A stretch of 64,000 bases of DNA from Bifidobacterium eulemuris (lineage in GTDB: Bacteria > Actinomycetota > Actinomycetes > Actinomycetales > Bifidobacteriaceae). Below are positions 2,992 through 59,687 of this stretch, one piece after another. Location: NCBI RefSeq assembly GCF_014898155.1, contig NZ_CP062938.1, positions 2,170,001-2,234,000 on the forward strand. Reading direction: 5' to 3'. A program made the position numbers and the translations under genes. Position 1 is the first letter of the stretch; every line of letters begins with the position of its first letter. The notes under the pieces were generated by a model, which worked only from the letters and a program-made list of their open reading frames with translations, did no database searches and was not told the DNA's origin.

Positions 2992-5283
2992 ATGACCCAC
3001 ACCCTTGACCTCACCGGCTTTCAGCCCAAGTCGATCGTCCGATTCCCCATCACGCGAGGCGAGTGGGGGGTGTCTCCACAGGGGGAGACCATCGACTTCA
3101 CCAACTACCACATGTCCGTGGACGGAAAACCGTTCTATGGAATCTGCGGAGAATACCATTATTCCCGCATGGATCCCGTTCGCTGGGACGAGCAGCTCGC
3201 CAAAATGGCGGCCGGCGGCATCAACGTCGTGTCCACATACGTGTTCTGGAACCACCATGAGGAACGCGAGAACGAATGGGATTTCACCGGCCGGCGCAAC
3301 ATCCGCCGTTTCATCAAGCTGTGCGCCAGGCACGGTCTCAAGGTGATCGTGCGTCTGGGACCCTTCGACCACGGCGAGGTGCGCAACGGCGGCATCCCCG
3401 ACTGGATGTACGGCAAGCCCTATGAGGTGCGCTCGTGCGACGCCGGATTCCTCGACAAGGTGCGCGACCTTTACCGCCATATCGCCGGACAGATCGACGG
3501 ATTGTACTTCAAGGACGGCGGTCCCATCATCGCCGCCCAGCTCGATAACGAATACATGCATTCCTCGGCGCCGTGGGAGATGACCACGGGCATCACCGAC
3601 GAATGGATCCCCGGAGGGCACGAAGGCTTCGCCTATGTGCACGCGCTGCGCGAGATCGCCGAAAGCGAGGGGATTTCGGTCCCCTTCTACACCAACACCG
3701 GCTGGGGCGGCTCTCCGGTGCCGGACGACGTGCTGCCGCTGTGGGGAGGATACGCCTATCGTCCCTGGCTGTTCTACGCCGGTCCGGGCGAGCATCCGGT
3801 CACGGACGAATACGTGTACCGTGATTTTCACGCGAACGACTGCCCCCGCGGCGAGGAGTTCGATCCGACCTATGAGCCGGAGACCAAGCCCTACGCCTGC
3901 TGCGAGATGGGCGGCGGCATGTTCTCGTCGTACAACTACCGCTTCGTGCTGCCGATGAAGTCCGTGGACGCCATGGCCAACATCAAAATGGCCTCGGGAT
4001 GCAACTTCCTGGGCTACTACATGTACCAGGGCGGATCGAATCCGATCGGAAACGGCGTCTATCTCAACGAAAGCCAGCTGCCGAAGATCTCCTACGATTT
4101 CCAGGCCGCGCTCGGCGAGTTCGGGCAGATGCGCGAATCGTACCGCAGGTTGAAAACGCTGCATCGCTTCGCGCTCGCCTTCGCCGACAGGCTCACCCCG
4201 CTGGGCGTCGCCGTGCCGGAGGAACAGAGAACCATCGATCCGAACGATATGCACTCGCTTCGATGGAGCGTGCGCACCGATGGGCGGCGTGGCTTCGTGT
4301 TCCTCAATAATTTCCAGGACCACGCCGCCATGGACGACAAGCATGGCGAGATCATCGCCATCACCTTGGCGGATGGTGCCGAGGTCGTGTTCGACGGCAT
4401 CGGCATGGCCCGCGACGAGAACTGCGTGCTGCCGTTCAACATGGACCTGGACGGAATCACCCTCACCGCCGCCACCGTGCAGCCGGTCACGGTGATCTCC
4501 ACGCCGGGATCCGGGCATCGGACCTTCGTGTTCATGCGCCCGGACGGCATGGACGAGGCATGGATGCGGTTCGAGGGCGTCGGGAAGCGTGTCATCGCGT
4601 CGGATGCCGACATCACCGATTTCGAAGTCGAAGACAATGGGAACATCGTTTCGATCGTAGTGGTCAGCCGGGCATGGGCCAACGCCATGACCGTCGTCGA
4701 CGACGAGGCCCTGGTCTTCTCCGCGGTTCCGACTGGCGAGTGGGACTCGGCGGAGAGCATCGTTCCCGCTGCGGACGCCCCGGCGGCGTATATCGCCGAC
4801 GGCAAGGTCAAAGTGGAATCCTTGGACGCCGACATCGCGGTCGAGACCTTCCCCGCCGACTATCTTTCCTCGAGCTCGGCGTCGTTCGCCCCGCACGTCG
4901 TCACACCCGTCGTCGAGAGGCTTTCCGACACGCGCTATGTCATCACCCTGCCGGACGATCTCATGGCGAGCGAGGGCGTCAAGGACGTACGCCTCAAAAT
5001 ACGCTACCAAGGCGATATCGGATGGCTATGGGCCGGCGCCACGCTGGTCGACGACAACTTCGCCAACGGCGACGTGTGGGAGATCGGCCTGCGGGAGCAT
5101 GCGGACCTACTGGTGGACAACCGCAACCGGCTTGTGCTGACCATCACCCCCATCAAAGAAGGCGCAAACGTGAACGTCGAATCCGCTATGGCGGCCCGCA
5201 TGGAGAATGTGGACGCCCGGATCGCGGGCCTGGTCTCGATCGAGGCCCGCGCGGTGTACGAAGCCGGATTTGCGATAGCATAG
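2992..5283 (+). CDS. Glycoside hydrolase family 35-like beta-galactosidase
   Basis: Predicted cytoplasmic beta-galactosidase-type enzyme, 763 residues, with no signal peptide. The GH35 catalytic barrel is recognised by YHYSRMDPVRWDEQLAKMAA followed by GINVVSTYVFWNHHE (family form: tYvpWn.He) and GLKVIVRLGPF. The proton donor is expected at Glu187 in AAQLDNEYMHS (family QxENEYG, here with an Asp two residues before the Glu). The nucleophile is expected at Glu305 in YACCEMGGG. The C-terminal half is beta-rich and probably forms the jelly-roll domains seen in the family. It follows the permeases by 2 nt and is followed by an AraC gene after 31 nt. The divergent QLDNEY motif and YACCEMGGG (instead of E-x-W-x-G-W) make it an outlying GH35 member; the natural glycoside is unknown. 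Confidence 0.85.
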   Translation: MTHTLDLTGFQPKSIVRFPITRGEWGVSPQGETIDFTNYHMSVDGKPFYGICGEYHYSRMDPVRWDEQLAKMAAGGINVVSTYVFWNHHEERENEWDFTGRRNIRRFIKLCARHGLKVIVRLGPFDHGEVRNGGIPDWMYGKPYEVRSCDAGFLDKVRDLYRHIAGQIDGLYFKDGGPIIAAQLDNEYMHSSAPWEMTTGITDEWIPGGHEGFAYVHALREIAESEGISVPFYTNTGWGGSPVPDDVLPLWGGYAYRPWLFYAGPGEHPVTDEYVYRDFHANDCPRGEEFDPTYEPETKPYACCEMGGGMFSSYNYRFVLPMKSVDAMANIKMASGCNFLGYYMYQGGSNPIGNGVYLNESQLPKISYDFQAALGEFGQMRESYRRLKTLHRFALAFADRLTPLGVAVPEEQRTIDPNDMHSLRWSVRTDGRRGFVFLNNFQDHAAMDDKHGEIIAITLADGAEVVFDGIGMARDENCVLPFNMDLDGITLTAATVQPVTVISTPGSGHRTFVFMRPDGMDEAWMRFEGVGKRVIASDADITDFEVEDNGNIVSIVVVSRAWANAMTVVDDEALVFSAVPTGEWDSAESIVPAADAPAAYIADGKVKVESLDADIAVETFPADYLSSSSASFAPHVVTPVVERLSDTRYVITLPDDLMASEGVKDVRLKIRYQGDIGWLWAGATLVDDNFANGDVWEIGLREHADLLVDNRNRLVLTITPIKEGANVNVESAMAARMENVDARIAGLVSIEARAVYEAGFAIA

Positions 5284-46147: not shown

Positions 46148-47953
46148 ATGGCGCAACGCAACACATTCCGTGAGGACGAGGAACTCGAGGAGCAGATCAA
46201 CCTGCACGACATCCTGCGCGTCGGCGGGTATCTCAAACCGTATCTTGGCCGCGTGGCCCGCATCCTCATCGTCGTCGTGTCGATGAGCGGCATTCTGGTC
46301 ACCGTGCCCTACCTGACCAAAATCATGATCGACGAGGCGATTCCGAACGAGGACCTGGGACTGCTGGGTCTGCTCGCCGGTCTGCTCGCCGTGCTGATCG
46401 TGGTCTACGAGCTGTGCCTGCGCTACCGCACGGTGGAGATCACGCGCGTGGGGCAGATGATGCTCAAGGACATGCGACGCGACATCTTCACGCATATCCA
46501 GACGCTGCCGTTCAGCTACTTCGACTCGCGTCCGCACGGCAAGATCCTGATCCGCGTGGTCAACTATGTGAACACGCTGTCCGACACGCTTTCGTCCGGT
46601 CTGATCAACGTGATCTCCGACGTGTTCACCTTCCTGCTCACGCTGGTGATCATGTTCGCGGTCGACTGGCGGCTCGCGTTGTGGAGCCTGGTGCTGTTCC
46701 CCGCGCTCATCATCTGGGTGCGCGTGCTGCAGTATTTCCAGCGGCGCGCCTACCAGCGGCTGTCGAACAAGCAGTCGAATCTCAACGCGTACATCCATGA
46801 GTCGATCGCCGGCGTGAAAACCACGCAGACCTTCGCGCAGGAGCGCGCGCAGTTCGACACCTTCCAGCAGCAGCAAAGCGAGGTGCGTACCGCGTGGATG
46901 AAGGCCGTGCACATCCAGTTCCTTATGTGGCCGGGCGTGCAGACCATCTCCGTGATGACGATCGCGCTGATCTATTTCGTGGGCATCACGGGATTCGCCG
47001 GCGTGGACGTGACCACGGGCGTGCTCATCGCGTTCGTTGGCTACGCGAACAACTTCTGGAACCCGGTCATCAACATCGGCAACTTCTACAACCAGCTCAT
47101 CACCTGCTCCGCCTATCTGGAGCGCATCTTCGAGACGCTGGACGTGGTGCCCGAGATCGAGAACAAGCCGGGGGCCGCCGACCTGCCGCAGGTGCGCGGC
47201 GCGGTCGACTTCAACGATGTGGTGTTCCGTTACGAGGAGGGCGGCCGCAACATCCTCAATCTGGTGGACTTCCATGTCTCGCCGGGGCGTACGGTCGCGC
47301 TGGTGGGGCCGACGGGCGCGGGCAAGACGACGATCATCTCGCTGCTGTCGCGCTTCTACGACGTGTCGGAGGGGTCGGTGACGATCGACGGCTACGACGT
47401 GCGCGACGTGACGCTTGAATCGCTGCGCCGGCAGATGGGCGTGATGCTGCAGGACACGTTCATCTTCTCGGGCGATGTGCGCGAGAACATCCGCTACGGC
47501 AAGCTCGATGCCACCGACGATCAGATCGAGGCTGCGGCCCGGGCCGTGCACGCGCACGAGTTCATCATGGAGCTGCCCGACGGCTACGACACCGTGGTGG
47601 AGGAGCGGGGCTCGACGCTCTCCGCCGGGCAACGACAGCTCATCGCCTTCGCTCGCGTGCTGCTCGCCGACCCGCGGATTCTGATCCTCGACGAGGCGAC
47701 GTCGAATATCGACACGCGCACCGAGGAGGCGCTGCAGGCCGGGCTCGCCGCGCTGCTGAAGGGGCGCACGAGCTTCATCATCGCGCACCGGTTGTCGACC
47801 ATTGAGAACGCGGACGAGATTTTCTACATCGACCACGGGCAGATCGTCGAGCATGGCGCGCATAAGACGCTATTGGACGAGCGTGGCGCGTATTGGCGGC
47901 TGTATGAGTCGCAGTATGCGATGATCACGGCCGGCGTCGGGCGTGGTGCGTAG
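46148..47953 (+). CDS. ABC exporter half-transporter, catalytic-Glu subunit
   Basis: 601-residue partner of the previous gene. Six spans are followed by an ATPase with Walker A GPTGAGKTT, Walker B ILILDEATSNID (catalytic Glu present) and a non-canonical signature LSAGQRQL. Together with the Asp in the partner, the altered signature here predicts one hydrolytic and one degenerate site, as in known heterodimeric exporters. An N-terminal amphipathic, acidic stretch (REDEELEEQINLHDI) precedes the first span. The ATG follows GAGGAGG, 12 nt upstream. The gene ends 6 nt before repeat element copy A, whose first hairpin probably terminates the operon. Confidence 0.92.
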   Translation: MAQRNTFREDEELEEQINLHDILRVGGYLKPYLGRVARILIVVVSMSGILVTVPYLTKIMIDEAIPNEDLGLLGLLAGLLAVLIVVYELCLRYRTVEITRVGQMMLKDMRRDIFTHIQTLPFSYFDSRPHGKILIRVVNYVNTLSDTLSSGLINVISDVFTFLLTLVIMFAVDWRLALWSLVLFPALIIWVRVLQYFQRRAYQRLSNKQSNLNAYIHESIAGVKTTQTFAQERAQFDTFQQQQSEVRTAWMKAVHIQFLMWPGVQTISVMTIALIYFVGITGFAGVDVTTGVLIAFVGYANNFWNPVINIGNFYNQLITCSAYLERIFETLDVVPEIENKPGAADLPQVRGAVDFNDVVFRYEEGGRNILNLVDFHVSPGRTVALVGPTGAGKTTIISLLSRFYDVSEGSVTIDGYDVRDVTLESLRRQMGVMLQDTFIFSGDVRENIRYGKLDATDDQIEAAARAVHAHEFIMELPDGYDTVVEERGSTLSAGQRQLIAFARVLLADPRILILDEATSNIDTRTEEALQAGLAALLKGRTSFIIAHRLSTIENADEIFYIDHGQIVEHGAHKTLLDERGAYWRLYESQYAMITAGVGRGA

Positions 47954-47959
47954 GGGGCT

Positions 47960-48139
47960 TCGCACGGACCTCGCCCCATCTCGGTCCCGTGCGACTTTTT
48001 CTTACATGAATCGCACAGGTCGTGTGTGATTCAAAACGGGAGGAAGGGCTGATTTCCAAGGAAATCCGCCCTTCCGTGTGCGTTTGGCGGTCGAAACAGG
48101 GTCGCACGGGCATGGCGGCCGCCCGTATCCGTGCGACCC
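47960..48139 (+). repeat. Three-hairpin repeat element, copy A
   Basis: About 180 nt. Stem I (TCGCACGG with CCGTGCGA, 47960-47994) is followed by a T-run (CTTTTTC) as in an intrinsic terminator, then TTACATGAATCGCACAGG. Stem II, centred on GATTTCC-AA-GGAAATC, spans about 48042-48075. Stem III is GGGTCGCACGG (48099-48109) with CCGTGCGACCC (48129-48139). It lies between the exporter operon (plus) and a LacI gene (minus, ending at 48144). Confidence 0.88.
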
Positions 48140-48143
48140 GCCT

Positions 48144-49163
48144 CTACCGTCGGGTCGACTCGCGGGCGACCAGCCTATAGTCGGCGGTAAGCGTGCGGGT
48201 GGGGGCGTCCCCGCCGTCGATGCGGTCGAGCAGCAGTCCCACCGCTTTGCGCGCCAGATCCTCCATGTCGGTGGCGATGGTGGAGAGCGAGGGGATGTAG
48301 TAGTCGCATTCGTTGATGCCGTCGAATCCGATGACGGCGGCATCCTGCGGCACGTGGATGCCCCTGTCCGCCAAGCCGCGGATGAATCCAAGTGCGATCG
48401 AATCGGTCATGCAGAACACTCCGTCAAAGGGTGTGCCCGCGTCGACGACGTTATGGGCGAGTTTGCGTGCCGCGCCGTTCTGCCATTGTTCAGGGCGGAG
48501 GAATTGCGTGGGGTCCGGAGTGATTCCCAAGTTCTCGAACGCGTTGAGACATCCGATAAGGCGGCGTCCAGAAACAGACATGGCGGCGCGATCCTCGGCC
48601 AGCATGTCGTAAGAGGCGCCGACGACCAGAATGCGTCGGCATCCGACTTCGATCAGATGGCGGATGGCGGCTTCGGAACCGGATTCGCAAGGGGTGGCCA
48701 CCGAATCGAACACCGGGTCGGGGGAGATGTCGTCGAGCAACACTACCGGTTTACCTCCGGACAGGTCGCGAATCTCTTCGTCGGAAACCTTACCGGGGCT
48801 GAAAATCGTGCCGTCGCACAGTTGGCTCGTCACCTTCTGCAGAATCGCGATTTCGCTTTCTTTGGAATTGGAGGTCTCCTGGACGATGGCTTCGAGCCCG
48901 TGGCGGGCGACCTCGCGGGAGATGGCGGCGCTCATTTCGGAGGGGTATGGGAAGTCGAGTTCGAAAATCGCCACGCCGATAAGCCCGCTGCGCCCTGAGC
49001 GCAGTGATCGGGCGGAGAGATTGGTGGTGTATTGCAACGCGCGCGCCGCTTGAAGCACGCGGTCCGTGGTTGCGGGGGCGATGCGTGGGTCGCCGCGCAG
49101 TGCGTAGGATGCGGTGGCGCGCGACACGCCTGCCGCCTTGGCGACATCGCTCATCGTGACCAT
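48144..49163 (-). CDS. LacI-family transcriptional regulator (local GH43 control)
   Basis: 339-residue LacI/GalR repressor. The HTH is VTMSDVAKAAGVSRATASYA, with the hinge helix region LSARSLRSGRSGLIGVAIFE. The effector domain contains CRRILVVGASYDM, GVFCMTDSIALGFIRGL, and AAVIGFDGINECDYYIP, ending RLVARESTRR. The start at 49163 follows AAGGAGCGCAGC; the upstream extension in the same frame covers the operators and is non-coding. It is divergent from the GH43 gene at 49598, and the two operators at 49252 and 49297 are the expected targets, giving autoregulation and control of GH43. Confidence 0.94.
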   Translation of the reverse strand: MVTMSDVAKAAGVSRATASYALRGDPRIAPATTDRVLQAARALQYTTNLSARSLRSGRSGLIGVAIFELDFPYPSEMSAAISREVARHGLEAIVQETSNSKESEIAILQKVTSQLCDGTIFSPGKVSDEEIRDLSGGKPVVLLDDISPDPVFDSVATPCESGSEAAIRHLIEVGCRRILVVGASYDMLAEDRAAMSVSGRRLIGCLNAFENLGITPDPTQFLRPEQWQNGAARKLAHNVVDAGTPFDGVFCMTDSIALGFIRGLADRGIHVPQDAAVIGFDGINECDYYIPSLSTIATDMEDLARKAVGLLLDRIDGGDAPTRTLTADYRLVARESTRR

Positions 49164-49251
49164 GCTGCGCTCCTTGGATATTGCAATAGTTGCGTTGCTA
49201 TTGGGCTTCGCTGGGAATATCCCTTTCCTGGGTCTAGTGTACCCCGATGAT

Positions 49252-49265
49252 TTGACACGATTCAA
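49252..49265. promoter_or_regulatory. LacI-type operator O1 with overlapping promoter
   Basis: TTGACACGATTCAA has the TTGA-CG-TCAA skeleton of LacI/GalR operators. Its first six bases are also a consensus minus-35; TATAAC follows after 18 nt at 49276-49281, giving a plus-strand promoter that repressor binding would cover. Confidence 0.8.
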
Positions 49266-49296
49266 TTCAATGGTGTATAACGGTGTCCACCACCTG

Positions 49297-49310
49297 TTGA
49301 ATCGTGTCAA
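49297..49310. promoter_or_regulatory. LacI-type operator O2
   Basis: TTGAATCGTGTCAA is the exact reverse complement of O1, centred 45 bp away and just downstream of the predicted transcription start. Two mirror-image sites could allow looping or cooperative repression by the adjacent LacI protein. Confidence 0.8.
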
Positions 49311-49392
49311 AACAAGAATTCAGCGGGAAATACATGGCGATGCAGCCATGAAACGACCACAGGGGCATAGCGGCCTCGATAAAGGAGGAGTC

Positions 49393-49473
49393 ATGAGGAT
49401 CACGAAGACGATGAAGGCCGTCCTCGGCGCGGTTTCTGCCAGAAGCGGATCGTCTCCGGTCTTGTCGGGCTGA
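49393..49473 (+). pseudogene. Truncated 5' end of a probable sugar-binding protein gene
   Basis: A strong AAAGGAGGAG site precedes an ATG encoding 26 residues, MRITKTMKAVLGAVSARSGS then SPVLSG and stop. The beginning looks like the basic start of a lipoprotein or secretion signal, as in ABC sugar-binding proteins, after which the sequence collapses. Its place, between a LacI-controlled promoter and a GH43 gene, is where a binding-protein gene would be expected. I infer that an importer was deleted and only the first codons remain; it could also be a leader peptide. Confidence 0.45.
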
Positions 49474-49597
49474 TGGCTGGCATGGAACGCCAGTCCTCCC
49501 ATGGTCGAGGCCGCGGCGGAGCATGTTCTCCTTTCGCTCCGCCTGCGACCTGATAACAAGCTACGCCCGCGGGTGCGGGCATGAGAAAGGCATTACA

Positions 49598-50566
49598 ATG
49601 ACCAACGCTTTTGAACCTTCCGTCGTGCGCGTCGCGGAGCGTGAGCTGCTTCCGCACCGCGTGAACGACGCGACGTTGCCGACCAATCCGTTGCATCGCT
49701 ACTGCGCGGATCCGAATCTCGCGATTTTCGATGGACGCTATTTCCTCTACTGCACCGACGACGGCGTCGACGATTGGGGGACCACCGCGTTTAGCGTGTA
49801 CGTCTCCGACGATCTGGCCACTTGGGAGCGCTATCCGGCGCTCGACCTGCGCGACGTGCCATGGTGGGACGGCGAGAACGGCGCGTGGGCACCGTCCGTC
49901 GTGCGATCATCCCAAGGCAAGTATGTGTTCCTGTTTGTCGCGGGCGGACAGATCGGCGCGGCCGTGACGGACACCCCGTACGGCCCGTTCGTCCCCCAGC
50001 CGCAGCCGCTGGTGCGTAAGGGCACATTCGACTGCCATACCATTGATCCCGGCGCGTTCGTCGATGACGATGGCAGTCGGTACTTCCTCTGGGGTAACGG
50101 CCGGGCGTGGATGGCCCCATTCTCCGACGATTGCCTGTCGTTCGATGAGACGCGGGCCTGGTCGTGGATTCCCGGCGATTTTCGCGAGGCCATCTGGATT
50201 CACCGCCGTAACGGCACGTACTACGCTTCGTGGAGCGAAAACGACACGCGCGATCCGGAATACTGCGTCAAATACGCGATGTCGGATTCCCTGCATGGGC
50301 CGTGGAGCGAGCCGCGCACACTGCTGGAGCAGGACCCCGAGCATCACTTGTATGGTACCGGACACCACAATATCGTGAACATCCCTGGCACCGACGAATG
50401 GATCATCGCCTACCATCGATTCGCCTACCATCCTGGCGGGCGTTGGTCGGGCGGCGACGGATGCCATCGTGAGGTGGTGTTCGCTCCCCTGACCCACAAC
50501 ACCGACGGCACGCTGGAGCAGGTGCGTCCGGCCGTGGGGTCATATGTGCGGTCGTTGACCTTCTGA
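49598..50566 (+). CDS. Glycoside hydrolase family 43 enzyme (arabinanase/arabinofuranosidase-like)
   Basis: 322-residue cytoplasmic GH43 five-bladed propeller. The catalytic base Asp is in YCADPNLAIFDG, the middle Asp in CHTIDPGAFVDDDG, and the acid Glu in PGDFREAIWIHRRNG. HNIVNIPGTDEWIIAYHRFA is the conserved last blade. The spacing of DPN, IDPG and REA matches bifidobacterial alpha-L-arabinofuranosidases or beta-xylosidases; which one is not determined. The start at 49598 follows GAAAGGC; the upstream in-frame extension lacks homology. It is under the LacI operators upstream and followed after 62 nt by repeat copy B. Confidence 0.9.
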   Translation: MTNAFEPSVVRVAERELLPHRVNDATLPTNPLHRYCADPNLAIFDGRYFLYCTDDGVDDWGTTAFSVYVSDDLATWERYPALDLRDVPWWDGENGAWAPSVVRSSQGKYVFLFVAGGQIGAAVTDTPYGPFVPQPQPLVRKGTFDCHTIDPGAFVDDDGSRYFLWGNGRAWMAPFSDDCLSFDETRAWSWIPGDFREAIWIHRRNGTYYASWSENDTRDPEYCVKYAMSDSLHGPWSEPRTLLEQDPEHHLYGTGHHNIVNIPGTDEWIIAYHRFAYHPGGRWSGGDGCHREVVFAPLTHNTDGTLEQVRPAVGSYVRSLTF

Positions 50567-50628
50567 GTCCGGCGCGGCCGTCGGCTGGGCGGCGACTGGG
50601 GCCATCGGGCGAGAGAAGCGCACGGACT

Positions 50629-50809
50629 TCGCACAGACCCTGCCCCAACCCGGTCCCGTGCGACTTTTCCTTACATGAATCGCACAGGTCGTGTGCGTTC
50701 CGTAAGAAGCAAAAGGGCGGATTTCCAAGGAAATTCGCCTTTTTTGTGTGCGTTTGGGGCCGACGGGAGGGTCGCACGAACGCACGAGACCAAGGCATTC
50801 GTGCGACCC
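50629..50809 (+). repeat. Three-hairpin repeat element, copy B
   Basis: About 181 nt in the 306-nt GH43-membrane protein gap. Stem I is TCGCACAGACC with GGTCCCGTGCGA (50629-50663), followed by CTTTTCC. Stem II is AAGGGCGGATTTCC with GGAAATTCGCCTTTT (about 50711-50744). Stem III is GGGTCGCACGAA (50769-50780) with TTCGTGCGACCC (50798-50809). Compared with copy A, the stem III end changes from GG/CC to GAA/TTC on both sides. The rest of the gap holds only the start region of the next gene. Confidence 0.88.
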
Positions 50810-50872
50810 GCTCCCAGCCAGCGATGGTGCGGACGATGTACACTGTCAGCGCGAGCATATAAGGAGGTCCGT

Positions 50873-51622
50873 GTGACGGCAGACGACAGCAACCATAAAG
50901 GTGGGGTGGTGTTCACGCAGGAGCAGCAGGACGCCATCGCCGCTCTCGCCTCGGAGAACAAATACGCGAAGCAGTCGAAATGGAAAACGCTGCGTGAGCT
51001 TCCGCCTAAGGACCGTTGGCCCTTCTTCCGCCAGAATTTCCTGGTGGAGACGGGACTGGTGTTGGTGGTCGTGGCGTTTGTCGTGGCGCTTGTCGTCACC
51101 ATGGTGACGCGTGGGCCCGATGCGGAGCTCACGGTCGTGCGGCTCAACGCCGGCGAGTCCTACGCGCAGCCGATGTCGGAGCTGAAAACCGGCTTCATCG
51201 AGCGCGCGGGCATCGAGGACGAGCGGATCGCGCAGTTCGACGGTTCCTACGACATCACCGAGGACGGAAACATCTACACCGACGATTCCGCCGGTCTGCT
51301 CACCCGTATCAGCGCGGGGGACATCAATGTGCTGATCACCACCGAAGAGACGTTGACATTGGTGGAGACGCGTGGATACGCCTCGTCTCTGTCGGAGAAG
51401 CTCGAGTCCTCGCAGCTGGAGGCGGTGGCCGACGCCCTGGTCGATGTCGACGGCGAGCCGGTGACCGACGCGTCGCAGGCGTTCGCGCTCGACCTGAGCA
51501 AGTCGGCCACGTGGACGTCGCTGGACGGCGCGCCCGACGACGCCTATCTGGTCATCTCCAATGTGGAGGATGAGACGCATCTGACCCGCATGCGCGAGTT
51601 GGTTGATTATCTGTTTGAGTGA
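50873..51622 (+). CDS. Single-span membrane protein of unknown function
   Basis: 249-residue protein. An N-terminal cytoplasmic part (about 1-55, VFTQEQQDAIAALASENKYA) is followed by one span (TGLVLVVVAFVVALVVTMVT) and an extracellular domain of about 165 residues rich in Asp/Glu/Thr. The latter includes FIERAGIEDERIAQFDGSYD, GDINVLITTEETL and DAYLVISNVEDETHLTRMRE. The fold resembles small bifidobacterial and streptococcal surface proteins annotated only as hypothetical; I do not recognise a family. The GTG at 50873 lies 6 nt after AAGGAGG. Repeat copy C begins directly after its stop codon. Confidence 0.8.
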   Translation: MTADDSNHKGGVVFTQEQQDAIAALASENKYAKQSKWKTLRELPPKDRWPFFRQNFLVETGLVLVVVAFVVALVVTMVTRGPDAELTVVRLNAGESYAQPMSELKTGFIERAGIEDERIAQFDGSYDITEDGNIYTDDSAGLLTRISAGDINVLITTEETLTLVETRGYASSLSEKLESSQLEAVADALVDVDGEPVTDASQAFALDLSKSATWTSLDGAPDDAYLVISNVEDETHLTRMRELVDYLFE

Positions 51623-51802
51623 GGTCGCACGGAGCGGTTGCGCGGTATCGCTCGTGCGACTTTTCCTTACATGAATCGCACAGCCCGTGTGCGTTGCGTG
51701 GATGACATAATGGCGGATTTCCAAGGAAGTCCGCCATTCGTATGTTCATTTGAGGTTGATGGATGGGTCGCACGCGTGGGAGCGCCGGCCTCCGTCGTGC
51801 GA
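51623..51802 (+). repeat. Three-hairpin repeat element, copy C, overlapping a LacI coding end
   Basis: About 180 nt starting at the base after the upstream stop codon. Stem I is GGTCGCACGGAGCG (51623-51636) with CGCTCGTGCGAC (51649-51660), then TTTTCC. Stem II is AATGGCGGATTTCC with GGAAGTCCGCCATT (51709-51738). Stem III is GTCGCACG with CGTGCGA (51767-51802). Stem I has its own paired change (GAGCG with CGCTC). The 3' half forms the last codons and stop of the LacI gene on the other strand. Confidence 0.88.
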
Positions 51803-53125
51803 TAACAGGCTTGTGGACTCGCGCTCGACGAGCCGATATCCGATGGTGAGCTGCGCGGGAGGTTCGTCCGTTTCGCCGCTGGCCCGGCGTTCGATGCGTC
51901 GGACGAGCAGGTCGAGCGCGAAGCGGGAGAGTTGGTCGAGGTCGACTTGGATGGTGCTCAGGCTGGGGGTCGCGTATGCGCCGGCGCTGGCCCCGTCGAA
52001 GCCGATCACCTTCACATCGCGCGGCACGTCGAGTCCGAGATTGTTCAGGCCGCGGATCACCGCGAAGGCGACGCAGTCGTTCGCGCAGAACACCCCATCG
52101 AACGGAATCGGCGCGGTCTCCTCGGCAACGTTCGTCCGTTCCGCGGTGTGCGGGTCATTCTGTGCGGTGGTGGTTTGCCTCGCGTTCGCCGTGGTGCGTC
52201 GGTCGGTCTGCGCAGCGGCGGACTGACCAGCACCCGCCGCTGTCTGGTTGCCGATCTGCACGGATTGTGGGTGGCCCCCGCGGTCGTACACATGCGTTCC
52301 GGTGGTTGTCTGGTTGCCGATCCGCGCGGGGCGGGGGTCTTGGTTCGCGGTCTCCGATGTCGTGCCGTAGGCCGCCAGAATATGACGTGCGATGCGCTCT
52401 CCGGCGGCGATGCCGTCGTCGATCCCGTAGGCGTGGAAGACCGTGGGCTCGTCGTAGGGCAGTCCGGCGTCGAGCAGCGCGCCGCTGGCGCCGCGCAGAC
52501 GCAAGGCTCCGGAACTTTGCGCCTGCGCGAGTTCGCCGCGCTCCATGTAGGTTTCGCCGACGAGCGCGACGCGTTGGCATCCGCGGTCGATCAGATGGCG
52601 CACGGCGGCGCGCGCCCCCTCCTCGTTGGGGAAGTTCACCTGGTCGGTGGTGGGCTGGATTTCACATGAGTCGATCAGCACGAAGGGGCGACCGTGGGTC
52701 ATGCTGTCGATTGGGGCGTCCGGGTTCAGTCCGGAGGCATGCAGGATCTCCCCGTCGAAGAGTTGGTCGGAGAAGGGGGAGGATTGCAGCGCCTGTTTGG
52801 CCGCGTCCGGCGAATATCGCGTCTGTTCGAGGAAGGGGGTGAGTCCGCGCGCGGTGGTGTGCGCGCTGAGCGACTGCACGAGTTTGGAATAGAAAGGCGA
52901 GTCGTATTCGTTCACGACGATGTGGATGATGTTGCTGCGGCCGGATTTGAGCATGCTCGCGGTGAGATTGATGCGGTAGTCGAGTTTTTTCGCGGCCGCG
53001 ACCACCTTGAGCCGCGTGGACTCCTTGACGCCGGGCTTGCCGTGCAGCGCGTTCGACGCGGTCATGGGGGACACTCCCGCCGCTCGCGCCACATCGCGTA
53101 ATGTCGGGGTGCTGCCTGTGCCCAT
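51746..53125 (-). CDS. LacI-family transcriptional regulator with a low-complexity insertion
   Basis: 459-residue LacI/GalR repressor. The HTH is TLRDVARAAGVSPMTASNAL, and the hinge is LTASMLKSGRSNIIHIVVNE. The effector domain shows CQRVALVGETYMER, GVFCANDCVAFAVIRGLNNL, and VKVIGFDGASAGAYATPSLS. Between about residues 252 and 338 is a Thr/Gln/Ala/Asn-rich insertion with repeated IGNQT units, about 85 residues absent from the family. The natural end would be RLVERES; the last 20 or so residues (SLLSHDGGRRSHACDPSINL) are read from repeat element copy C. The start at 53125 follows AAGGAGGAGTC. It is divergent from GH27 and the probable regulator of the GH27-GH51-symporter cluster. Confidence 0.92.
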   Translation of the reverse strand: MGTGSTPTLRDVARAAGVSPMTASNALHGKPGVKESTRLKVVAAAKKLDYRINLTASMLKSGRSNIIHIVVNEYDSPFYSKLVQSLSAHTTARGLTPFLEQTRYSPDAAKQALQSSPFSDQLFDGEILHASGLNPDAPIDSMTHGRPFVLIDSCEIQPTTDQVNFPNEEGARAAVRHLIDRGCQRVALVGETYMERGELAQAQSSGALRLRGASGALLDAGLPYDEPTVFHAYGIDDGIAAGERIARHILAAYGTTSETANQDPRPARIGNQTTTGTHVYDRGGHPQSVQIGNQTAAGAGQSAAAQTDRRTTANARQTTTAQNDPHTAERTNVAEETAPIPFDGVFCANDCVAFAVIRGLNNLGLDVPRDVKVIGFDGASAGAYATPSLSTIQVDLDQLSRFALDLLVRRIERRASGETDEPPAQLTIGYRLVERESTSLLSHDGGRRSHACDPSINLK

Positions 53126-53512
53126 GACTCCTCCTTGGGTGCGTCTGACGGCCGATACCGCATATCGTACGCATATCACGACCTTCAGCTGTGCGTCTTC
53201 TTGTCGGGTGCGCCTGACTGCCGGCTCCGGACCGCGATATGTCCGCATGATATGGATAGGTTTATTTAACGATATTGTCTTGCTGAACAAAATGCAAACT
53301 GAGGTAAAATCATTGTAATTCAGCGAAATAACAGGCAACTCTCCGATAGGCGGATTCCGTTTGCGAAGTGATGATGTTGCTTTAGAATATGTAACGGTAC
53401 ATATTTGTGTGGGGCCATTCCACACGGATCGGAACGGGCCGGACGGCCGCCGCCCGACATCGGCGGCCTCGCGACGCGGCCGGCGTGCGGCGAAGGACGG
53501 AAAGGAATCGAT
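53126..53512. promoter_or_regulatory. 387-nt divergent LacI/GH27 control region
   Basis: No gene is seen. The AT-rich middle (53240-53345) contains TTATTTAACGATATTG and related AT-rich pieces likely to hold the LacI promoter. Toward GH27 a promoter can be read as TTGCGA (53361-53366), 18 nt, GAATAT (53385-53390), with the palindromic operator overlapping its minus-10. A GC-rich leader of about 110 nt follows. Confidence 0.6.
53387..53404. promoter_or_regulatory. Palindromic operator upstream of GH27
   Basis: ATATGTA and TACATAT flank ACGG, an 18-bp near-perfect palindrome with a central CG, overlapping the predicted minus-10 of the GH27 promoter. The neighbouring LacI regulator is the obvious candidate to bind it. 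Confidence 0.7.
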
Positions 53513-54916
53513 ATGAGCGGGCATCTCAAGGCAAGTCGCCCACCGATGGGCTGGAACAGCTGGGATTCATACGGCACCACGCTGAACGAGCAGGAGCTGC
53601 TCGCCAACGCGCGTTTCATGGCCGAGCATCTGCTCGCCGCCGGATGGGACACGCTGGTCGTGGACATCGACTGGTACGATCCGACCGCCCGCGCGCACGG
53701 CTACAACGAGAACGCGCCGCTGGTGCTCGACGAATACGGCCGTCAGCTGCCCGACCCGGAGCGTTTCCCGAGCGCGGCGAACGGCGCGGGCTTCAAGCCG
53801 ATCGCCGACGCCGTGCACGCGCTGGGACTGAAATTCGGCGCGCATATGATGCGCGGCATCCCACGCCTCGCCGTCGAACGCGACCTGCCCGTCAAAGGCA
53901 CCGCATACACCGCGCGCGACGTGGCCGACCTCGACCACGTGTGCAAATGGAACCCCGACAACTACGGGCTCAACCAATCCCACCCCGGCGCGCAGGCTTG
54001 GTATGACGCGCAGATCGACCAATTCGCCGAATGGGGGCTCGAGTTCCTCAAAGTCGACGACATGCAGACCCCGTTCCATTCCGAGGAGATCGCCGCCTAC
54101 CGGCGCGCCATCGCCAAAGCCGAGGCCGCGCACGGCCGCGCCATCAGCCTTTCGCTCTCGCCCGGCGGCTGGGTGAGCACCGGCTACGTCGACTTCCTGC
54201 GCGAGAACGCCCAGATGTGGCGCATCTCCGACGACCTGTGGGACCGTTGGGAGGATATCCTCCAACAGTTCGCTCGCCTCGCCCGTTGGGCCCCGTTCCA
54301 GACCGCCGGCCACTGGGCCGACGCCGACATGCTGCCTTTGGGACATATCGGCCTGCGCGCCGAACGCGGGGACGACCGCGACTGCCGTCTGACCCCGGAC
54401 GAGCGCCGCACCCTGCTCGCCCTATGGTGCATGGGACGCTCGCCGCTGATGGTGGGCGGCGACCTGCCCACCAGCACGCCCGAAACCATCGCCCTGCTCG
54501 CCAACCCGGCCCTGCGCGAGGTGACCGCGGGCTCGGCCGACAACCACGAAACCGTGCGCGAACGCATCTTCGCCCGCTGGGACGACGAGAACAGCTATCG
54601 CGGCGAACTCATCGTCTGGGCCGCCGACGCCGCCGACTGGGCCGACGGCACGCCATCCGCCCATCCGAACGGCCGGTACGCGGCCCTGTTCTGGACCGGT
54701 GACGACGACTACGAGCTCGGCGGCAACATCGAACTGCAATCCATCGTCGGCATCGACGGACGCGACGATCCGTGGACCCTCACCGATCTGTTCGCCGGCG
54801 TGGCCGACGGCGCGGCTCCGGCCGACGTGCGCATCGAAGGCGAAGGGGCGGACCGGGTGGTCGCCGGCACGATCCCCTCCCACGGCGCGCTGTGGATCGC
54901 GCTCGACCGTCGCTGA
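53513..54916 (+). CDS. Glycoside hydrolase family 27 alpha-galactosidase
   Basis: 467-residue GH27 enzyme, cytoplasmic. It opens with the family motif RPPMGWNSWDSYGTTLNE and then TLVVDIDWYDP. The nucleophile is Asp182 in FLKVDDMQTP, and the acid/base Asp lies in WRISDDLWDRWEDI (about 240-245). HWADADMLPLGHIG is the conserved loop. A C-terminal antiparallel beta domain follows (about 385-467). Activity is probably alpha-galactosidase, but beta-L-arabinopyranosidases also belong here and would suit an arabinogalactan locus. The start at 53513 follows GGAAAGGAATCG. It is first in the GH27-GH51-symporter unit. Confidence 0.92.
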   Translation: MSGHLKASRPPMGWNSWDSYGTTLNEQELLANARFMAEHLLAAGWDTLVVDIDWYDPTARAHGYNENAPLVLDEYGRQLPDPERFPSAANGAGFKPIADAVHALGLKFGAHMMRGIPRLAVERDLPVKGTAYTARDVADLDHVCKWNPDNYGLNQSHPGAQAWYDAQIDQFAEWGLEFLKVDDMQTPFHSEEIAAYRRAIAKAEAAHGRAISLSLSPGGWVSTGYVDFLRENAQMWRISDDLWDRWEDILQQFARLARWAPFQTAGHWADADMLPLGHIGLRAERGDDRDCRLTPDERRTLLALWCMGRSPLMVGGDLPTSTPETIALLANPALREVTAGSADNHETVRERIFARWDDENSYRGELIVWAADAADWADGTPSAHPNGRYAALFWTGDDDYELGGNIELQSIVGIDGRDDPWTLTDLFAGVADGAAPADVRIEGEGADRVVAGTIPSHGALWIALDRR

Positions 54917-55019
54917 GCATCCATCGCAATCAAGGGCGGCCGCGCCGGCGCTCGGTACAGCGTGGGCGTGCGTCGTTTCGCTCGGCATGACGCGGACAGG
55001 TGCCGTGTCATTCGGCGTG

Positions 55020-55078
55020 ACGGCTCTTCGCTTCCGTCATTCCGAGCGCAGCGCAGCGGAGTCAAGGAATCCCACAAC
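55020..55078. repeat. Single REP-like unit between GH27 and GH51
   Basis: CGTCATTCCGAGCGCAGCGC followed by AGCGGAGTCAAGGAATCCC is a full unit of the same family as at 35.6 kb and in the ABC-F gene. Partial pieces (TCGGCATGACG, GTCATTCGGCGTGACGG) lie just upstream at 54979-55022. It occupies the 178-nt gap before GH51. Confidence 0.85.
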
Positions 55079-55094
55079 CCAAAAAAGGAACATC

Positions 55095-57671
55095 ATGACA
55101 AACGAACGACTCACCGCCGCCCTCGACAAGGCGGGCGTACGGAAAATCAGCACCGACCTGTGGGGCATCTTCTTCGAGGACATCAGCCATTCCGCCGACG
55201 GCGGCCTGGCCAGCGAACTCGTGCAGAACGGCGCCTTCGAATACAACCGCGCCGACAGCCGCGACTGGAGCAGCTACACCGCCTGGCGCAAAATCGTGCC
55301 GGAAGGATCCTTCGCCGCGTTCGGCGTCGGCGTCGACGATCCGGTGGCAAACGAGAACCCGCGCTACGCCGTGGTCGAGGTGCGCGACGCCCCGGCCTCG
55401 CTGGAGAACGTCGGCTTCGACGGCATGGTCTTCCGCGCCGGCGAAACCTACCGATGCTCTCTGTGGGCTCGCACGCGCGGCGGAACCGACGCGATGCCCA
55501 TCGACATCGCCCTGATCGGCGACTGGGGCGAAACGTTGGCCCGGTCGCGGGTTACGGCCGAAACGCGGCAGTGGTGCCAGCTCGCCGTCGACCTCACCGT
55601 CGCGGCCGACGGAACCGCATCGTACGATGCGGCCGATGACGACGGCGAAACGCGCGGCGGAACCGACGGCATCGCCCGCGAATCATACGCTTGCGCCAGT
55701 GCCGCGGACGATTCCGCGCAGGACGCGCCTTCGGGCAAGCCGAACGCTCCGGACGACCCGGCCAATCCAGCCAATCCAGCCGCCCCGGCCTACTCGTCCA
55801 ACCTGACCAATCCGGTCAATCCGGTCGGCCCGGCCAACCCGCCGACCGTCGCGCGCCAGGGCATGCTGCGCTTCACTTTCACCCAACCGGGCGAACTCGA
55901 CCTCGACTTCATCTCGCTGGAACCGGCCGCCACAACCCAAGGCCTGACGGCCCACATGCGCCCCGATCTGGTCCAGGCGCTCGCCGAACTCAAGCCGCGG
56001 TTCATGCGCTTCCCCGGCGGCTGCATCACCCACGGCCTGGGCATGGAGAACATGTACCACTGGGACCGCACCATCGGCGCCGTTGAGCATCGCCCGCACA
56101 ACTTCAACACGTGGGGCTACCACCAGAGCTTCCGCATAGGCTACTACGAATACCTGTGCCTGTGCGAGGCGATCGGCGCGAAACCCCTGCCCGTGCTGCC
56201 CGCGGCCGTCAGCTGCCAGAACACCAGCCAAGGCCCCGTGCCCATCGCCGAACGCGACATGCCCACCTACATCGACGAGGTGCTCGCGCTGGTCGAATTC
56301 TGCAACGGCGACGCCGACACCCCATGGGGCGCGCGCCGCGCCGAACTCGGCCATCCCGAACCCTTCGGGCTGGAATATCTGGGCATCGGCAACGAGGACC
56401 TCATCGACCCCGTGTTCAAAGACCGCTTCCAGCGCATCTTCGACGCGGTGAAGGCCGCGTACCCCGAAATCGTCGTGGTCGGCACCGTCGGTCCCGCTCC
56501 TGAAGGGCAGGATTACGAACTCGGCTGGGCCTACGCGCGCGAGGCCGGCATCCCGGTCGTCGACGAACACTCCTACCAGTCGCCGAGCTGGTGGTTCCAC
56601 AATCTGCACCACTACGACGACGCCGACCGCGGCGGCCCGAAGGTGTACCTCGGCGAATACGGCTCATGGGGCACCCAGCTCATCAACGGCCTGTCGGAAG
56701 CCGCGTTCATGAGCCATATGGAACTCAACGGCGACGTGGTGTCGATGGCCTCCTACGCGCCGCTGTTCGCCAAAAACGGCCACGAAAGCTGGAATCCCGA
56801 CCTCATCTACTTCGACAACGAGCGCGTCTACCGCACCATCAGCTATTGGGTGCAGCGGATGTTCGCCACCACCACCTGCGACGTCGCCTATCCGGTGGCG
56901 CTCGACGGGCCCGCCACGCTGACCCGCGAACTGCCGGAGAACATCGGCCTGCGCATCCTCGGCGGCGCGCACGCCGACATCCGCGATCTCAGCATCGAAA
57001 CGGCGGACGGCGAAACCATCGCCCTGCCCGACGTCCACTACCTGGGCAACGGCCCCGTCGACACCACGCTGGCGGCAAGCGGCGAAAGCTACACGCTGCG
57101 CGCGCGGGTCACGTATTGGGAAGGCATGTGGGGCGTGCAGTTCGCGATGGGCGACGTGAACGGCCCCAACCACAACATCGTCTCGCTCGGGCGCGGGCAC
57201 AGCGTGCAGGTGGTGCGCGACGGCAGCGGGTACGCGCTCGCCGGCACGGAGGTGTCGATGGACGCCGTGCGCCCCGGCACCACGTGGGACGTGCGCGTCG
57301 AAGTCGCCGACCGCGGCGCTCGTATGCGTCTGTTCATCGACGGCGAGCTGATCGCGGACGGGCGCGAGGATCCGGCCGAGCCGCGCCGCACCGTCACCGT
57401 CGCGCAGGATACGGCCGCTGGCATGACGTATGTGCGTGTGGTCAACGCGATGCCCGAGTCGGTTCAGGTGGATCTGACGCAGGTGTGCGATGGGCTGGGA
57501 CTTGCGCCCGAACGGCGTGCGCACGCGAAGGCCGTCGTGCTTGCCGGTGACGACGAATACGCCGGGCGTGTGGGGCAGGAGGCGCCGTACGCGCCGCAGT
57601 CCGTGCGGATCGATTTGGCGGGCGGCACGTACGAGGCTCCCGCATGGTCGTTCACGGTTATTACGCTGTGA
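55095..57671 (+). CDS. Glycoside hydrolase family 51 alpha-L-arabinofuranosidase
   Basis: 858-residue cytoplasmic GH51 enzyme. The N-terminal part has DLWGIFFEDISHSADGGLAS. A carbohydrate-binding-like beta domain (about 60-290) follows, interrupted by an Ala/Asp then Pro/Asn-rich insertion (about 176-254, with PANPANPAAP and NPVNPVGPANPP). The barrel has RFMRFPGGCITHGLGMENMY, acid/base Glu434 in LGIGNEDLIDP, and nucleophile Glu521 in VYLGEYGSWG. The C-terminal domain contains a lectin-like piece (YWEGMWGVQFAMGDVNGPN). GH51 enzymes release terminal arabinofuranose from arabinan, arabinoxylan or arabinogalactan fragments. The ATG at 55095 follows AAAAGGAACATC. Confidence 0.93.
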   Translation: MTNERLTAALDKAGVRKISTDLWGIFFEDISHSADGGLASELVQNGAFEYNRADSRDWSSYTAWRKIVPEGSFAAFGVGVDDPVANENPRYAVVEVRDAPASLENVGFDGMVFRAGETYRCSLWARTRGGTDAMPIDIALIGDWGETLARSRVTAETRQWCQLAVDLTVAADGTASYDAADDDGETRGGTDGIARESYACASAADDSAQDAPSGKPNAPDDPANPANPAAPAYSSNLTNPVNPVGPANPPTVARQGMLRFTFTQPGELDLDFISLEPAATTQGLTAHMRPDLVQALAELKPRFMRFPGGCITHGLGMENMYHWDRTIGAVEHRPHNFNTWGYHQSFRIGYYEYLCLCEAIGAKPLPVLPAAVSCQNTSQGPVPIAERDMPTYIDEVLALVEFCNGDADTPWGARRAELGHPEPFGLEYLGIGNEDLIDPVFKDRFQRIFDAVKAAYPEIVVVGTVGPAPEGQDYELGWAYAREAGIPVVDEHSYQSPSWWFHNLHHYDDADRGGPKVYLGEYGSWGTQLINGLSEAAFMSHMELNGDVVSMASYAPLFAKNGHESWNPDLIYFDNERVYRTISYWVQRMFATTTCDVAYPVALDGPATLTRELPENIGLRILGGAHADIRDLSIETADGETIALPDVHYLGNGPVDTTLAASGESYTLRARVTYWEGMWGVQFAMGDVNGPNHNIVSLGRGHSVQVVRDGSGYALAGTEVSMDAVRPGTTWDVRVEVADRGARMRLFIDGELIADGREDPAEPRRTVTVAQDTAAGMTYVRVVNAMPESVQVDLTQVCDGLGLAPERRAHAKAVVLAGDDEYAGRVGQEAPYAPQSVRIDLAGGTYEAPAWSFTVITL

Positions 57672-57696
57672 GCGCGAACCTTATGCAAGCGGAAGC

Positions 57697-59499
57697 ATGA
57701 CCGGAAGCACAATCGAAAGCGGGGTTGGGCGCGTGAGTGAAAGCGGTGGCGAACCCGCGGACGGCGGCGCGGCTGAGGCGGCGGGCGCATGTATGGGGCG
57801 GCGTCCCTTGCCTGGTCCCGCGGTCGAGTCCGACGGGCGGGTCGTGCCTGGTCCCGTGAATGAGTTCGACGGGCGGGCCGTGTCTGATTCCGCGGTCGAG
57901 TCCGACGACCCGACGGTCGATCCCACAGCCGACCCCGTCAATCCGCCGGTCGATCCCATGCCAGGCCAGCGGTCCGCCGGCGAAAGCGAGGCCCTGCGCG
58001 AGGCGGTCGCCGCATCCGACAAACGGCGCATCACCCTGCGCGAAGCCATCGGTTTCGGCATCGGCGACTGTTTCGGAGGCGGACAGCTCGCGCTGGGCAC
58101 CACCTATCTGGCGCTGTTCTGGAACCGATTCGGCGGCATGTCGATCACCACGGCCCAGGGCATCATCGGCGCGTGCGCCATCGTCAGCGCGTTCGCGGCG
58201 CTGGTGTTCGGCGTGCTCGACGACAATCTCTACCGTTTTCCGATCGGCCTGCGCTTCGGCCGCCGCCGCTTCCTGCTCGCCCTGCTTTCGCCATTGGTGC
58301 TGATCGGCGTGTTCCTGTGGATTCCGGGACTGCCGGTCGGCGTGTATGCGGTGGCATACGCGCTGTGGACAATGCTTCCGCAGGCGTTCCAGGCCTGCTA
58401 CAACCCGCTTCCCGGCGAGATGGCGCAGGATTTTGACGAACGCACGAAGCTGTCGACCACGCGTCTGTTCATCGCCACCGGAACCGGCACGCTGATTCCA
58501 TTGGCCGGCAGCGCGACGTTGGCGGTGTTCGGCGAGTGGCGCCCGGTCGGCTATATGATCTTCGCCATCGGCTTTACCGTCTGGTTCTCGCTGTCCCTGT
58601 TCCTGTGCTGGCGTGCCACTTGGGAGATGACGCCGGAGGAGGCGGGCTTCGGAGCGTGGGCGCGCGGCGAGGTCCCGCGCCGTCGCGTGGGGTTGCTTGG
58701 CTGGCTGCGACGCTTGGGCAAAGTGTTGGGGGAGTATGCCTCGACGTTGCGCATCGCCGAATTCCGCCGGCACCTGTCCATCTACCTGCTGGTGCAGCTG
58801 GCGATGGATGTGTTCGGGCAGACCTTCGTGTTCTTCGTGATCTACGATTGGAACCGCACCGCCGCCTTCGCCTCGCTGCTGCTGGGATGCGGCGTGATCT
58901 CGCTGCCGCTGATGCCTCTGTTCGGCTGGCTGCTTTCCGCCATCGGGCCCCGTCGCCTGTATGCGGTGAATTTCATCGGGTGTCTTGCGGGGGTGGGTTG
59001 GATGTTCGCGGCCTGGCGGTTGGTGGACGTGCTGCCCTCCACGGCGTGGACGGTGTTCGCGGTGGCCGGTGTGGTGGTGTTCTTCGTGTTCAAATCGCTC
59101 TGCGGATATCTGCCCTGGTCGGTGTTCCCGTTCATCGCGGATATCGACCAGTTGGTCACCGGACGCTACCGTTCCGCCACCTTCTCCGGCATCCAATCCT
59201 GCCTGCGCCAGTTGGGCTCCGGTATTGTGGTGATCGCGGTGGGGGCGATACTCGGCTGGGTGGGGTTCGACTCCACGCTGGATACGCAGTCCGAAATGGC
59301 GCGCGATGGTTTGGGCGCGGTGCTGCTTGGATGGTTCGCCATCGCCATGGTGCTCGCTTGGGTTATTTCGTCGCAGCTGACGATCGACCGCGAGACGAAT
59401 CTGCTGGTGTTGCGTGAGATCGACCGCTTGCGTGCGGGCGGCCGTAAGGAGGATGCGGACGAGGAGACGCGTCGGACCATTGAGCGGCTGATTGGATGA
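57697..59499 (+). CDS. GPH-family sugar:cation symporter
   Basis: 600-residue glycoside-pentoside-hexuronide type transporter. The first 110 residues are a soluble, Pro/Asp/Gly-rich N-terminal tail that includes three tandem 12-residue repeats (57814-57921). The membrane core has about 12 spans, starting REAIGFGIGDCFGGGQLALG. PLGEMAQDF-type sequence appears as NPLPGEMAQDFDERTKLSTT, the conserved cytoplasmic loop, and SIYLLVQLAMDVFGQTF begins the second half. It probably imports the oligosaccharide or arabinoside handled by GH27 and GH51. The start ATG at 57697 has a weak site (GCGGAAG) and lies 25 nt after GH51, so coupling is likely. The stop overlaps the start of repeat copy D. Confidence 0.88.
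   Translation: MTGSTIESGVGRVSESGGEPADGGAAEAAGACMGRRPLPGPAVESDGRVVPGPVNEFDGRAVSDSAVESDDPTVDPTADPVNPPVDPMPGQRSAGESEALREAVAASDKRRITLREAIGFGIGDCFGGGQLALGTTYLALFWNRFGGMSITTAQGIIGACAIVSAFAALVFGVLDDNLYRFPIGLRFGRRRFLLALLSPLVLIGVFLWIPGLPVGVYAVAYALWTMLPQAFQACYNPLPGEMAQDFDERTKLSTTRLFIATGTGTLIPLAGSATLAVFGEWRPVGYMIFAIGFTVWFSLSLFLCWRATWEMTPEEAGFGAWARGEVPRRRVGLLGWLRRLGKVLGEYASTLRIAEFRRHLSIYLLVQLAMDVFGQTFVFFVIYDWNRTAAFASLLLGCGVISLPLMPLFGWLLSAIGPRRLYAVNFIGCLAGVGWMFAAWRLVDVLPSTAWTVFAVAGVVVFFVFKSLCGYLPWSVFPFIADIDQLVTGRYRSATFSGIQSCLRQLGSGIVVIAVGAILGWVGFDSTLDTQSEMARDGLGAVLLGWFAIAMVLAWVISSQLTIDRETNLLVLREIDRLRAGGRKEDADEETRRTIERLIG
57814..57921 (+). repeat. Three 36-nt tandem repeats in the symporter N-terminus
   Basis: Units at 57814-57849, 57850-57885 and 57886-57921 encode GPAVESDGRVVP, GPVNEFDGRAVS and DSAVESDDPTVD. 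The repeats are imperfect but phase-locked. They lie in the hydrophilic tail before the first membrane span. Confidence 0.9.
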
Positions 59500-59678
59500 G
59501 TTCGCACGGAGGCGCGTATCTCGTGCGGTCGTGTGACTTTTTCTTACATGAATCGCACGGGTGATGTTCGGTGAGTGAAATGTAAAATGGCGGATTTCCA
59601 AGGAAATCCGCCATTACTATGTTCATTTGGGGTGGTGGTGAGGGTCGCACGCGGAGGCTATGTCCGCCCGTCCGTGCG
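59499..59678 (+). repeat. Three-hairpin repeat element, copy D
   Basis: About 180 nt, starting on the last base of the symporter stop codon. Stem I is AGTTCGCACGG with TCGTGTGACT (59499-59537) followed by TTTTTC. Stem II is AATGGCGGATTTCC with GGAAATCCGCCATT (59586-59615). Stem III starts with GGGTCGCACGCGGA, pairing with TCCGC and CGTGCG pieces (59642-59678). It fills the gap between the convergent symporter and ilvN genes together with the hairpin at 59688. Confidence 0.88.
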
Positions 59679-59687
59679 TTTTGTTTC

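Follow-up and report, generated by a model that had tools for sequence, protein, structure and literature searches.

A dispersed inverted-repeat DNA element at gene ends in Bifidobacterium eulemuris, with a terminator-like central hairpin in some copies

Four copies of the element in the window

The window, a stretch of 64,000 nucleotides from Bifidobacterium eulemuris (contig NZ_CP062938.1, positions 2,170,001 to 2,234,000 of the forward strand), contains four copies, A to D, of a repeat element in which two inverted end units, I and III, flank a core with a central hairpin, stem II. The copies had been noticed in a sequence-only reading, and their coordinates and internal order (stem I, a T-run, CTTACATGAATCGCAC, stem II, stem III) were borne out. 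All four lie on the plus strand and are given in positions of the window, with the offset between the end units and the score against R1, a covariance model built from 10 copies.

Copy A (47955..48144, offset 142, 183.8 bits) belongs to the long class of offsets described below and fills the gap between two convergent genes that end at 47953 and 48144. Its end unit I, CGCACG-N21-CGTGCGAC, is at 47961..47995, followed by an exact match to CTTACATGAATCGCAC at 48001..48016, stem II at 48044..48073 with 12 of 13 pairs (a member of alignment A5) and end unit III at 48103..48137; both end units are pattern matches. Copy B (50624..50814, offset 143, 194.6 bits) is flanked by two plus-strand genes. 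Its end units, again pattern matches, are at 50630..50664 and 50773..50807, and its stem II at 50713..50742 has all 13 pairs and a T-rich 3' context.

Copy C (51620..51810, offset 143, 186.9 bits) lies between convergent genes. End unit I (51626..51660, pattern match) is overlapped by a terminator-like site, stem II (51709..51738) has 13 of 13 pairs, and end unit III (51767..51801, pattern match) is located within the 3' end of a LacI-family regulator gene on the minus strand (51746..53092, start uncertain; PF00356 and PF13377), which has its last 21 codons and its stop inside copy C. Copy D (59497..59687, offset 143, 169.2 bits), which is not found in the sister genome G041, is flanked by an MFS gene and the gene of an acetolactate synthase small subunit, as assigned by Pfam. 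Its end unit I at 59503..59537, with the inner arm CGTGTG, was taken from the sequence and the offset list; stem II at 59586..59615 has 13 of 13 pairs and a terminator-like flag on the minus strand, and end unit III at 59644..59678 was matched by the pattern on the minus strand. When up to 3 mismatches are allowed, the 16-mer CTTACATGAATCGCAC occurs at 4 sites in the window (0.45 expected); with up to 2 it occurs at 6 sites in the genome, where controls gave 0.

Conserved end units at fixed spacing

The family is not limited to the four copies first described. In the 2.92-Mb genome R1 gave 67 matches, and after removal of opposite-strand duplicates and fragments at least 34 separate full-length copies remained. 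They are 160-190 bp long and consist of two inverted end units of about 35 bp and a core with CGNACA sites, sometimes with the central hairpin. In G041, where the flanks are mostly 92-98% identical where compared, 35 full-length copies were used, and 33 of the 34 own copies had a partner (the pair 1514909/1308619 was retained though it is 63% identical). Copy D is the sole own copy without one, and the corresponding place in G041 holds unrelated DNA. These copy numbers are lower bounds because part of the candidates was scored, namely 150 of 2034 with R1 in the own genome, 150 of 2157 in G041 and up to 15 per genome with R2, a sequence-only model of a related branch that we call T-type. Strong R1 matches were confined to 2 of 112 genomes of the genus, the own genome and G041; weak ones, often to stem II alone, occurred in 27 others and were left out of the copy count. 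T-type elements were found with R2 in 22 of 189 family genomes, 21 of the 22 within the genus. The most similar own copies are chiefly chromosomal neighbours. Copies are frequently clustered, 1-4 kb apart, around single genes or small operons, in the own genome as well as in T-type genomes. At the G041 site that corresponds to copy D (L095, 4060-4560) two unrelated long palindromes were seen, and elsewhere in G041 (L076, ~4335-4420) a partial second copy with a short duplicated flank lies ~230 bp before a full copy.

The end units were compared between the 33 own-G041 pairs; copy D was left out, its best match being a paralogue. In the core arms 8 of 396 cells (unit I) and 9 of 363 (unit III) differed (2-2.5%), as compared with 85 of 660 and 101 of 656 in the loops (13-15%) and 73 of 1045 and 96 of 1056 in the flanks (7-9%). 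Deletions in G041 accounted for 4 loop cells and 31 flank cells; insertions were left out of the count. A scan that allowed 10-35 nt and had no preferred length gave a spacer of 21 nt between the arms in 124 of 138 units of both genomes (unit I, 63/69; unit III, 61/69). When the pattern was matched freely in the own genome, 67 of the 70 matches likewise had the N21 spacer. By the offset between their end units, the own copies divide into 22 with a value of 130-133 and 11 with 141-144, and a single copy has 108. The two main classes thus lie ~10 bp apart, about one helical turn. Copies 179993, 662417 and 1708133 have their core motifs placed differently and still show an offset of 132-133.

Selection on structure, the formation of compensatory changes in all three stems and a partner swap between arms I and III had been proposed. 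For stems I and III the alignments gave 0 compensated pairs among 9 distinct sequences of 10 copies chosen by sequence, and pairing within hairpins I and III as a whole was not above permutation in the 34 copies (p 0.07-0.32). Of 18 positions taken singly, three reached p 0.018-0.032 uncorrected, and each of these is in unit III. These stems are kept as sequence at fixed spacing; in stem II 4 pairs of the same set had changed on both sides, so that selection on structure is upheld for stem II alone. The sequence-only reading had named a lack of significant covariation among more copies as the outcome that would refute it; this outcome was obtained for stems I and III, but not for stem II. A partner swap of I and III as RNA was not borne out; the arms scarcely vary and the loops are free, and covariation can therefore not speak for it. 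A consensus fold that pairs I with III was also set aside, as the symmetry of an inverted-repeat DNA element yields the same fold. The likeness of loop I to the reverse-complemented loop III was no greater within copies than between them (29 copies, p 0.89). At the sixth arm base A-C and G-U cells numbered 10/4 in unit I and 1/11 in unit III when own and G041 copies were pooled (p 0.0017, a value weakened because orthologs are counted twice), and 6/2 and 1/4 in the own copies alone; this mirrored change gives weak support to a strand-symmetric DNA site. The near-invariant arms, the fixed spacer and the two offset classes favour a protein complex at the DNA level over an RNA structure.

The placement of the copies was examined with genes called by a codon-usage script. 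Facing gene 3' ends lay within -80 to +10 nt of the element edge in 31 of 39 cases, facing 5' ends in 3 of 28 (p 1.6e-8). Of the 34 copies, 11 are in convergent, 16 in co-directional and 6 in divergent gaps, and 1 is uncalled. The LacI-family protein (51746-53092) runs to ...REST and continues with 21 residues encoded within copy C, and its PF13377 periplasmic-binding domain stops at residue 427 of 448; in the LacI-family protein encoded beside copy A the same domain stops at residue 337 of 339. Homologues were collected at 16 loci, 6 of them without a readable C-terminus, and of the 10 readable ones the 8 from beyond the own genome and G041 all end 2-6 residues past REST, though they are not independent because L189/L190 and L191/L195 are near-identical pairs. 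Since copy C gave this gene a 21-residue tail that is missing in 8 of 8 homologues, the elements appear to insert.

The insertion signature speaks against an explanation that would otherwise suit the end units, a host-wide and non-mobile array of binding sites for a chromosome-organising or regulatory protein, with copies kept for function. The conservation of motifs between orthologous copies, the difference of roughly one helical turn between the spacing classes and the presence of sites in gaps of all three orientations (divergent, co-directional and convergent) agree with such an array. The strong 3'-end bias does not, nor does the distribution, with strong own-type matches in two genus genomes and T-type elements in 22 family genomes, and we consider the array quite improbable.

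The central hairpin and its probable role in transcription termination

Stem II differs from the end units in that it covaries. In the sequence-chosen set 4 of its 13 pairs were compensated; in A5, with 11 copies chosen for their hairpins, the figure was 7 of 13, which is inflated because the copies were picked for good hairpins. Copy 2669720 was left out of A5 as misaligned by MAFFT, and 179993 and 707573, which had passed the 11-pair cut, were left out of A4 and A5 as weak or misplaced hairpins. The hairpin is bimodal in the family. In a scan with a 4-nt loop 13 of 34 copies beat their own shuffles at p 0.05; the count is best given as 12-13, as 707573 is misplaced and 2892577, with a 3-nt loop, was missed by the scan and yet folds. 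Stem II is absent from about 21 of the 34 copies.

Its presence goes along with the direction of the neighbouring genes. The element had been thought to be placed always after plus-strand genes, which holds for A to D and, across the family, for 18 copies out of the 33 whose upstream gene was called; copy 213809, with its upstream gene uncalled, was left out of the orientation tests. Among copies with a strong stem II, 10 of 12 are read into on the plus strand by the gene upstream, and among the others 8 of 21 (p 0.027). Convergent placement was found in 7 of the 12 and 4 of the 21 (p 0.052), and a strong stem II was absent from all 6 copies in divergent gaps (p 0.065). From the sequences we infer that stem II probably terminates transcription in the copies that carry the strong hairpin, and that it is probably not the reason for the existence of the whole element.

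If termination were the main role, the element would be a 3'-end RNA module in which a hairpin cluster halts RNA polymerase from both sides. In favour of this, gene stops abut the element, the predicted folds of copies A and D surpass those of shuffled sequences, and stem II, a genuine hairpin with A/T flanks in several copies, is missing from the six divergent ones. For a B. breve megaplasmid, hairpins that lack a U-tract have also been proposed to act as terminators (PMC10832533). A terminator, however, is not expected in the 6 of 33 copies that lie between script-called divergent genes, about 21 copies have no stem II, and stems I and III preserve their sequence and 21-nt loop rather than pairing. 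Nor did a generic terminator scan of the region show an excess (7 sites versus 8.4 expected). We regard termination as an unlikely main function.

That the copies are processed small RNAs, as the sequence-only reading had suggested in one of its options, or a riboregulator appears very improbable. Transcription of neighbouring genes would run across many copies, and stem II has 6 G-U versus 2 A-C cells (p 0.29); against this, the sequence varies freely in the end-unit loops, and the sole covarying stem is absent from most copies. The expectation that the layout matches no named RNA family was confirmed by Rfam, where no match reached the gathering score; with E relaxed to 1, three loci gave two matches below threshold. 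No description of the element was found in the open-licence literature, which was matched by words and not by sequences.

Relatives, mobility and known systems

The T-type branch was reached by a search with one weak relative. Its ends are GCAGCGAATCATTCTCAATAAGAAAAGTGTGAG and the inverse, weakly palindromic by eye, and it shares with the own type the core motifs AATCGCACAT and ATGTTCGTTTG and the centre GGCGGAAT..CAACGATTCCGCC. Three loci (G070:C13:193469, G031:C15:42949 and G072:C12:95490) were matched by both R1 and R2, and (T/C)TATTGAGAA is retained in unit III of the own copies 2892577 and 710887. In six genomes 122 T-type end units were listed, 100 of which make 50 inward pairs, with a distance of 133-137 bp in 48 of the 50. 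The other 22 units had no listed partner; 12 of these lie within full elements found by R2. Among inward arrangements of end units at 0.17-10 kb in the six genomes, only distances of 4-5 kb were seen, in G031 and G068. Both ends were identical in 21 of the 50 paired copies against 8.6 expected, a test that left out the 22 unpaired units and is driven by G036 (13 of 14). In G036 two copies 1.7 kb apart are 97.6% identical over 165 bp and have unrelated flanks, which could reflect gene conversion.

The explanation we favour, with a probability of roughly 0.48, is an inserted DNA element, non-autonomous and dispersed in the genome, that resembles the doublets of repetitive extragenic palindromes (REP doublets, REPINs), with its end units held at a fixed distance around the core. 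A mobile non-autonomous repeat carrying a terminator had been among the first suggestions and comes close, insertion being indicated by the LacI tail and the hairpin being found mainly where a gene reads in. The inverted TCGCACG sites, or the differing ends found in other species, would be recognised in a phased, double-stranded complex by a putative DNA-binding protein, which would also have moved the elements. Where genes read in, the central hairpin may be retained or rebuilt by selection to terminate transcription at the RNA level, and the end units would have their main role other than as RNA stems. If this is true, the family is REPIN-like in genomes where the enzyme class presumed to mobilise REPINs was not found, which makes the mobiliser a testable question; with tens of bounded gene-end elements with or without a terminator hairpin, one genome offers a natural comparison for inserted DNA that turns regulatory.

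Several points weigh against this inserted element, in addition to the own-copy counts at the sixth arm base, the inflated stem II figure and the two cautions on G036 given above. The long offset class could largely stem from a shared ancestral insertion. Copy 1303306 has its extra 10 nt elsewhere, so that the one-turn difference reflects at least two insertion events, though perhaps no more than two. As RNA, copies A and D fold strongly in full length compared with shuffles (z about -5), and the context tests of stem II are small. The own genome and G041 show no recent movement, as 33 of 34 copies are partnered. Among the polymorphic sites that could be aligned no clean empty site was found; they represent replacement by other DNA or deletion. 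The place of one G041 copy is taken in the own genome by 1.6 kb of other DNA and another G041 copy is partly deleted there, and G015 has one T-type element where G043 holds 6.7 kb of genes; at three more G015/G043 sites the stretches compared could not be aligned. A target duplication was not seen by eye in 25 T-type flanks, and neither a mobiliser nor a binding protein was found. The G043 block (L170, 11361-18091) encodes, by sight, amino-acid ABC transporter, SAH-hydrolase-like and amidohydrolase-like proteins.

Possible carriers were searched as well. The T-type query gave no matches in plasmids, phages and viral contigs; the copy A query gave none in plasmids and one marginal match in a phage (34 bp, E 4e-3, 17% of the query). 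Own-type pattern scans of named genomes yielded 0 and 3 matches, and the 3, in unrelated organisms, were taken by estimate as probable chance matches.

The comparison with REPINs is the closest one. REP doublets (BIMEs), for which PMC3116915 names RAYT Y1 transposases as the presumed mobilisers, are described there, like the present element, as extragenic, non-autonomous inverted doublets of short palindromic units with preferred distances and a less conserved spacer. Unlike REPs, the present units are ~35 nt long with a 21-nt free loop, and the copies number tens, as a lower bound, as compared with usually more than 100 REPs per genome according to PMC2817692. A RAYT mobiliser was considered and rejected, as no Y1 transposase was found in the own genome and none co-occurs with clear elements. 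Y1 transposases were detected in 7 of the 112 genus genomes, none of them with a strong R1 match or a listed T-type element, and 3 of the 7 (G016, G059 and G060) have weak, uncounted R1 matches. Because this transposase was not found in the own genome or in those with clear elements, the family was not filed as REPIN. GTAG/CGTC REPs, according to PMC3733652, adjoin gene 3' ends within less than 20 bp and occur mostly in convergent and co-directional gaps. The present elements are likewise near gene 3' ends but have long loops and, in the alignments read, no such tag at their ends; "Actinobacteria" does not occur in the main text of that paper.

Miniature inverted-repeat transposable elements (MITEs) share with the present elements that they are short, non-coding and dispersed and have inverted ends. 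The interiors, however, vary among copies at a nearly constant length. A further difference may be that no autonomous parent with matching ends was recognised and no target duplication was seen by eye in the T-type flanks. Bidirectional intrinsic terminators are similar in the gene-end position and in stem II of 12-13 copies, but terminators need no near-invariant end units at a fixed distance. A broader proposal would be a genus-wide class of mobile repeats that are recognised as one double-stranded nucleoprotein complex, its two inverted end units set at a constant geometry in steps of a helical turn, and that are moved by a non-RAYT enzyme, with lineage-specific ends and a replaceable terminator hairpin that domesticates copies at gene ends. 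This is possible, although we hold it to be somewhat doubtful.

Two kinds of repeat elsewhere in the genus may be related. In L046 (G037) and L048 (G060) a TTTTCCAACGAAAA hairpin is followed by CATGTGCGA..CACATG repeats 3' of a gene end. These weak R1 matches may represent another relative; G060 is one of the genomes with a Y1 transposase. In L058 (G052) and L062 (G068) hairpin-bounded repeats were seen with the arms GGGACGGAA..TTGCGTCCC and TGCCGTTCAGCGCGATT and a centre that resembles TTCCAAGGA, and these are perhaps further branches of the family.

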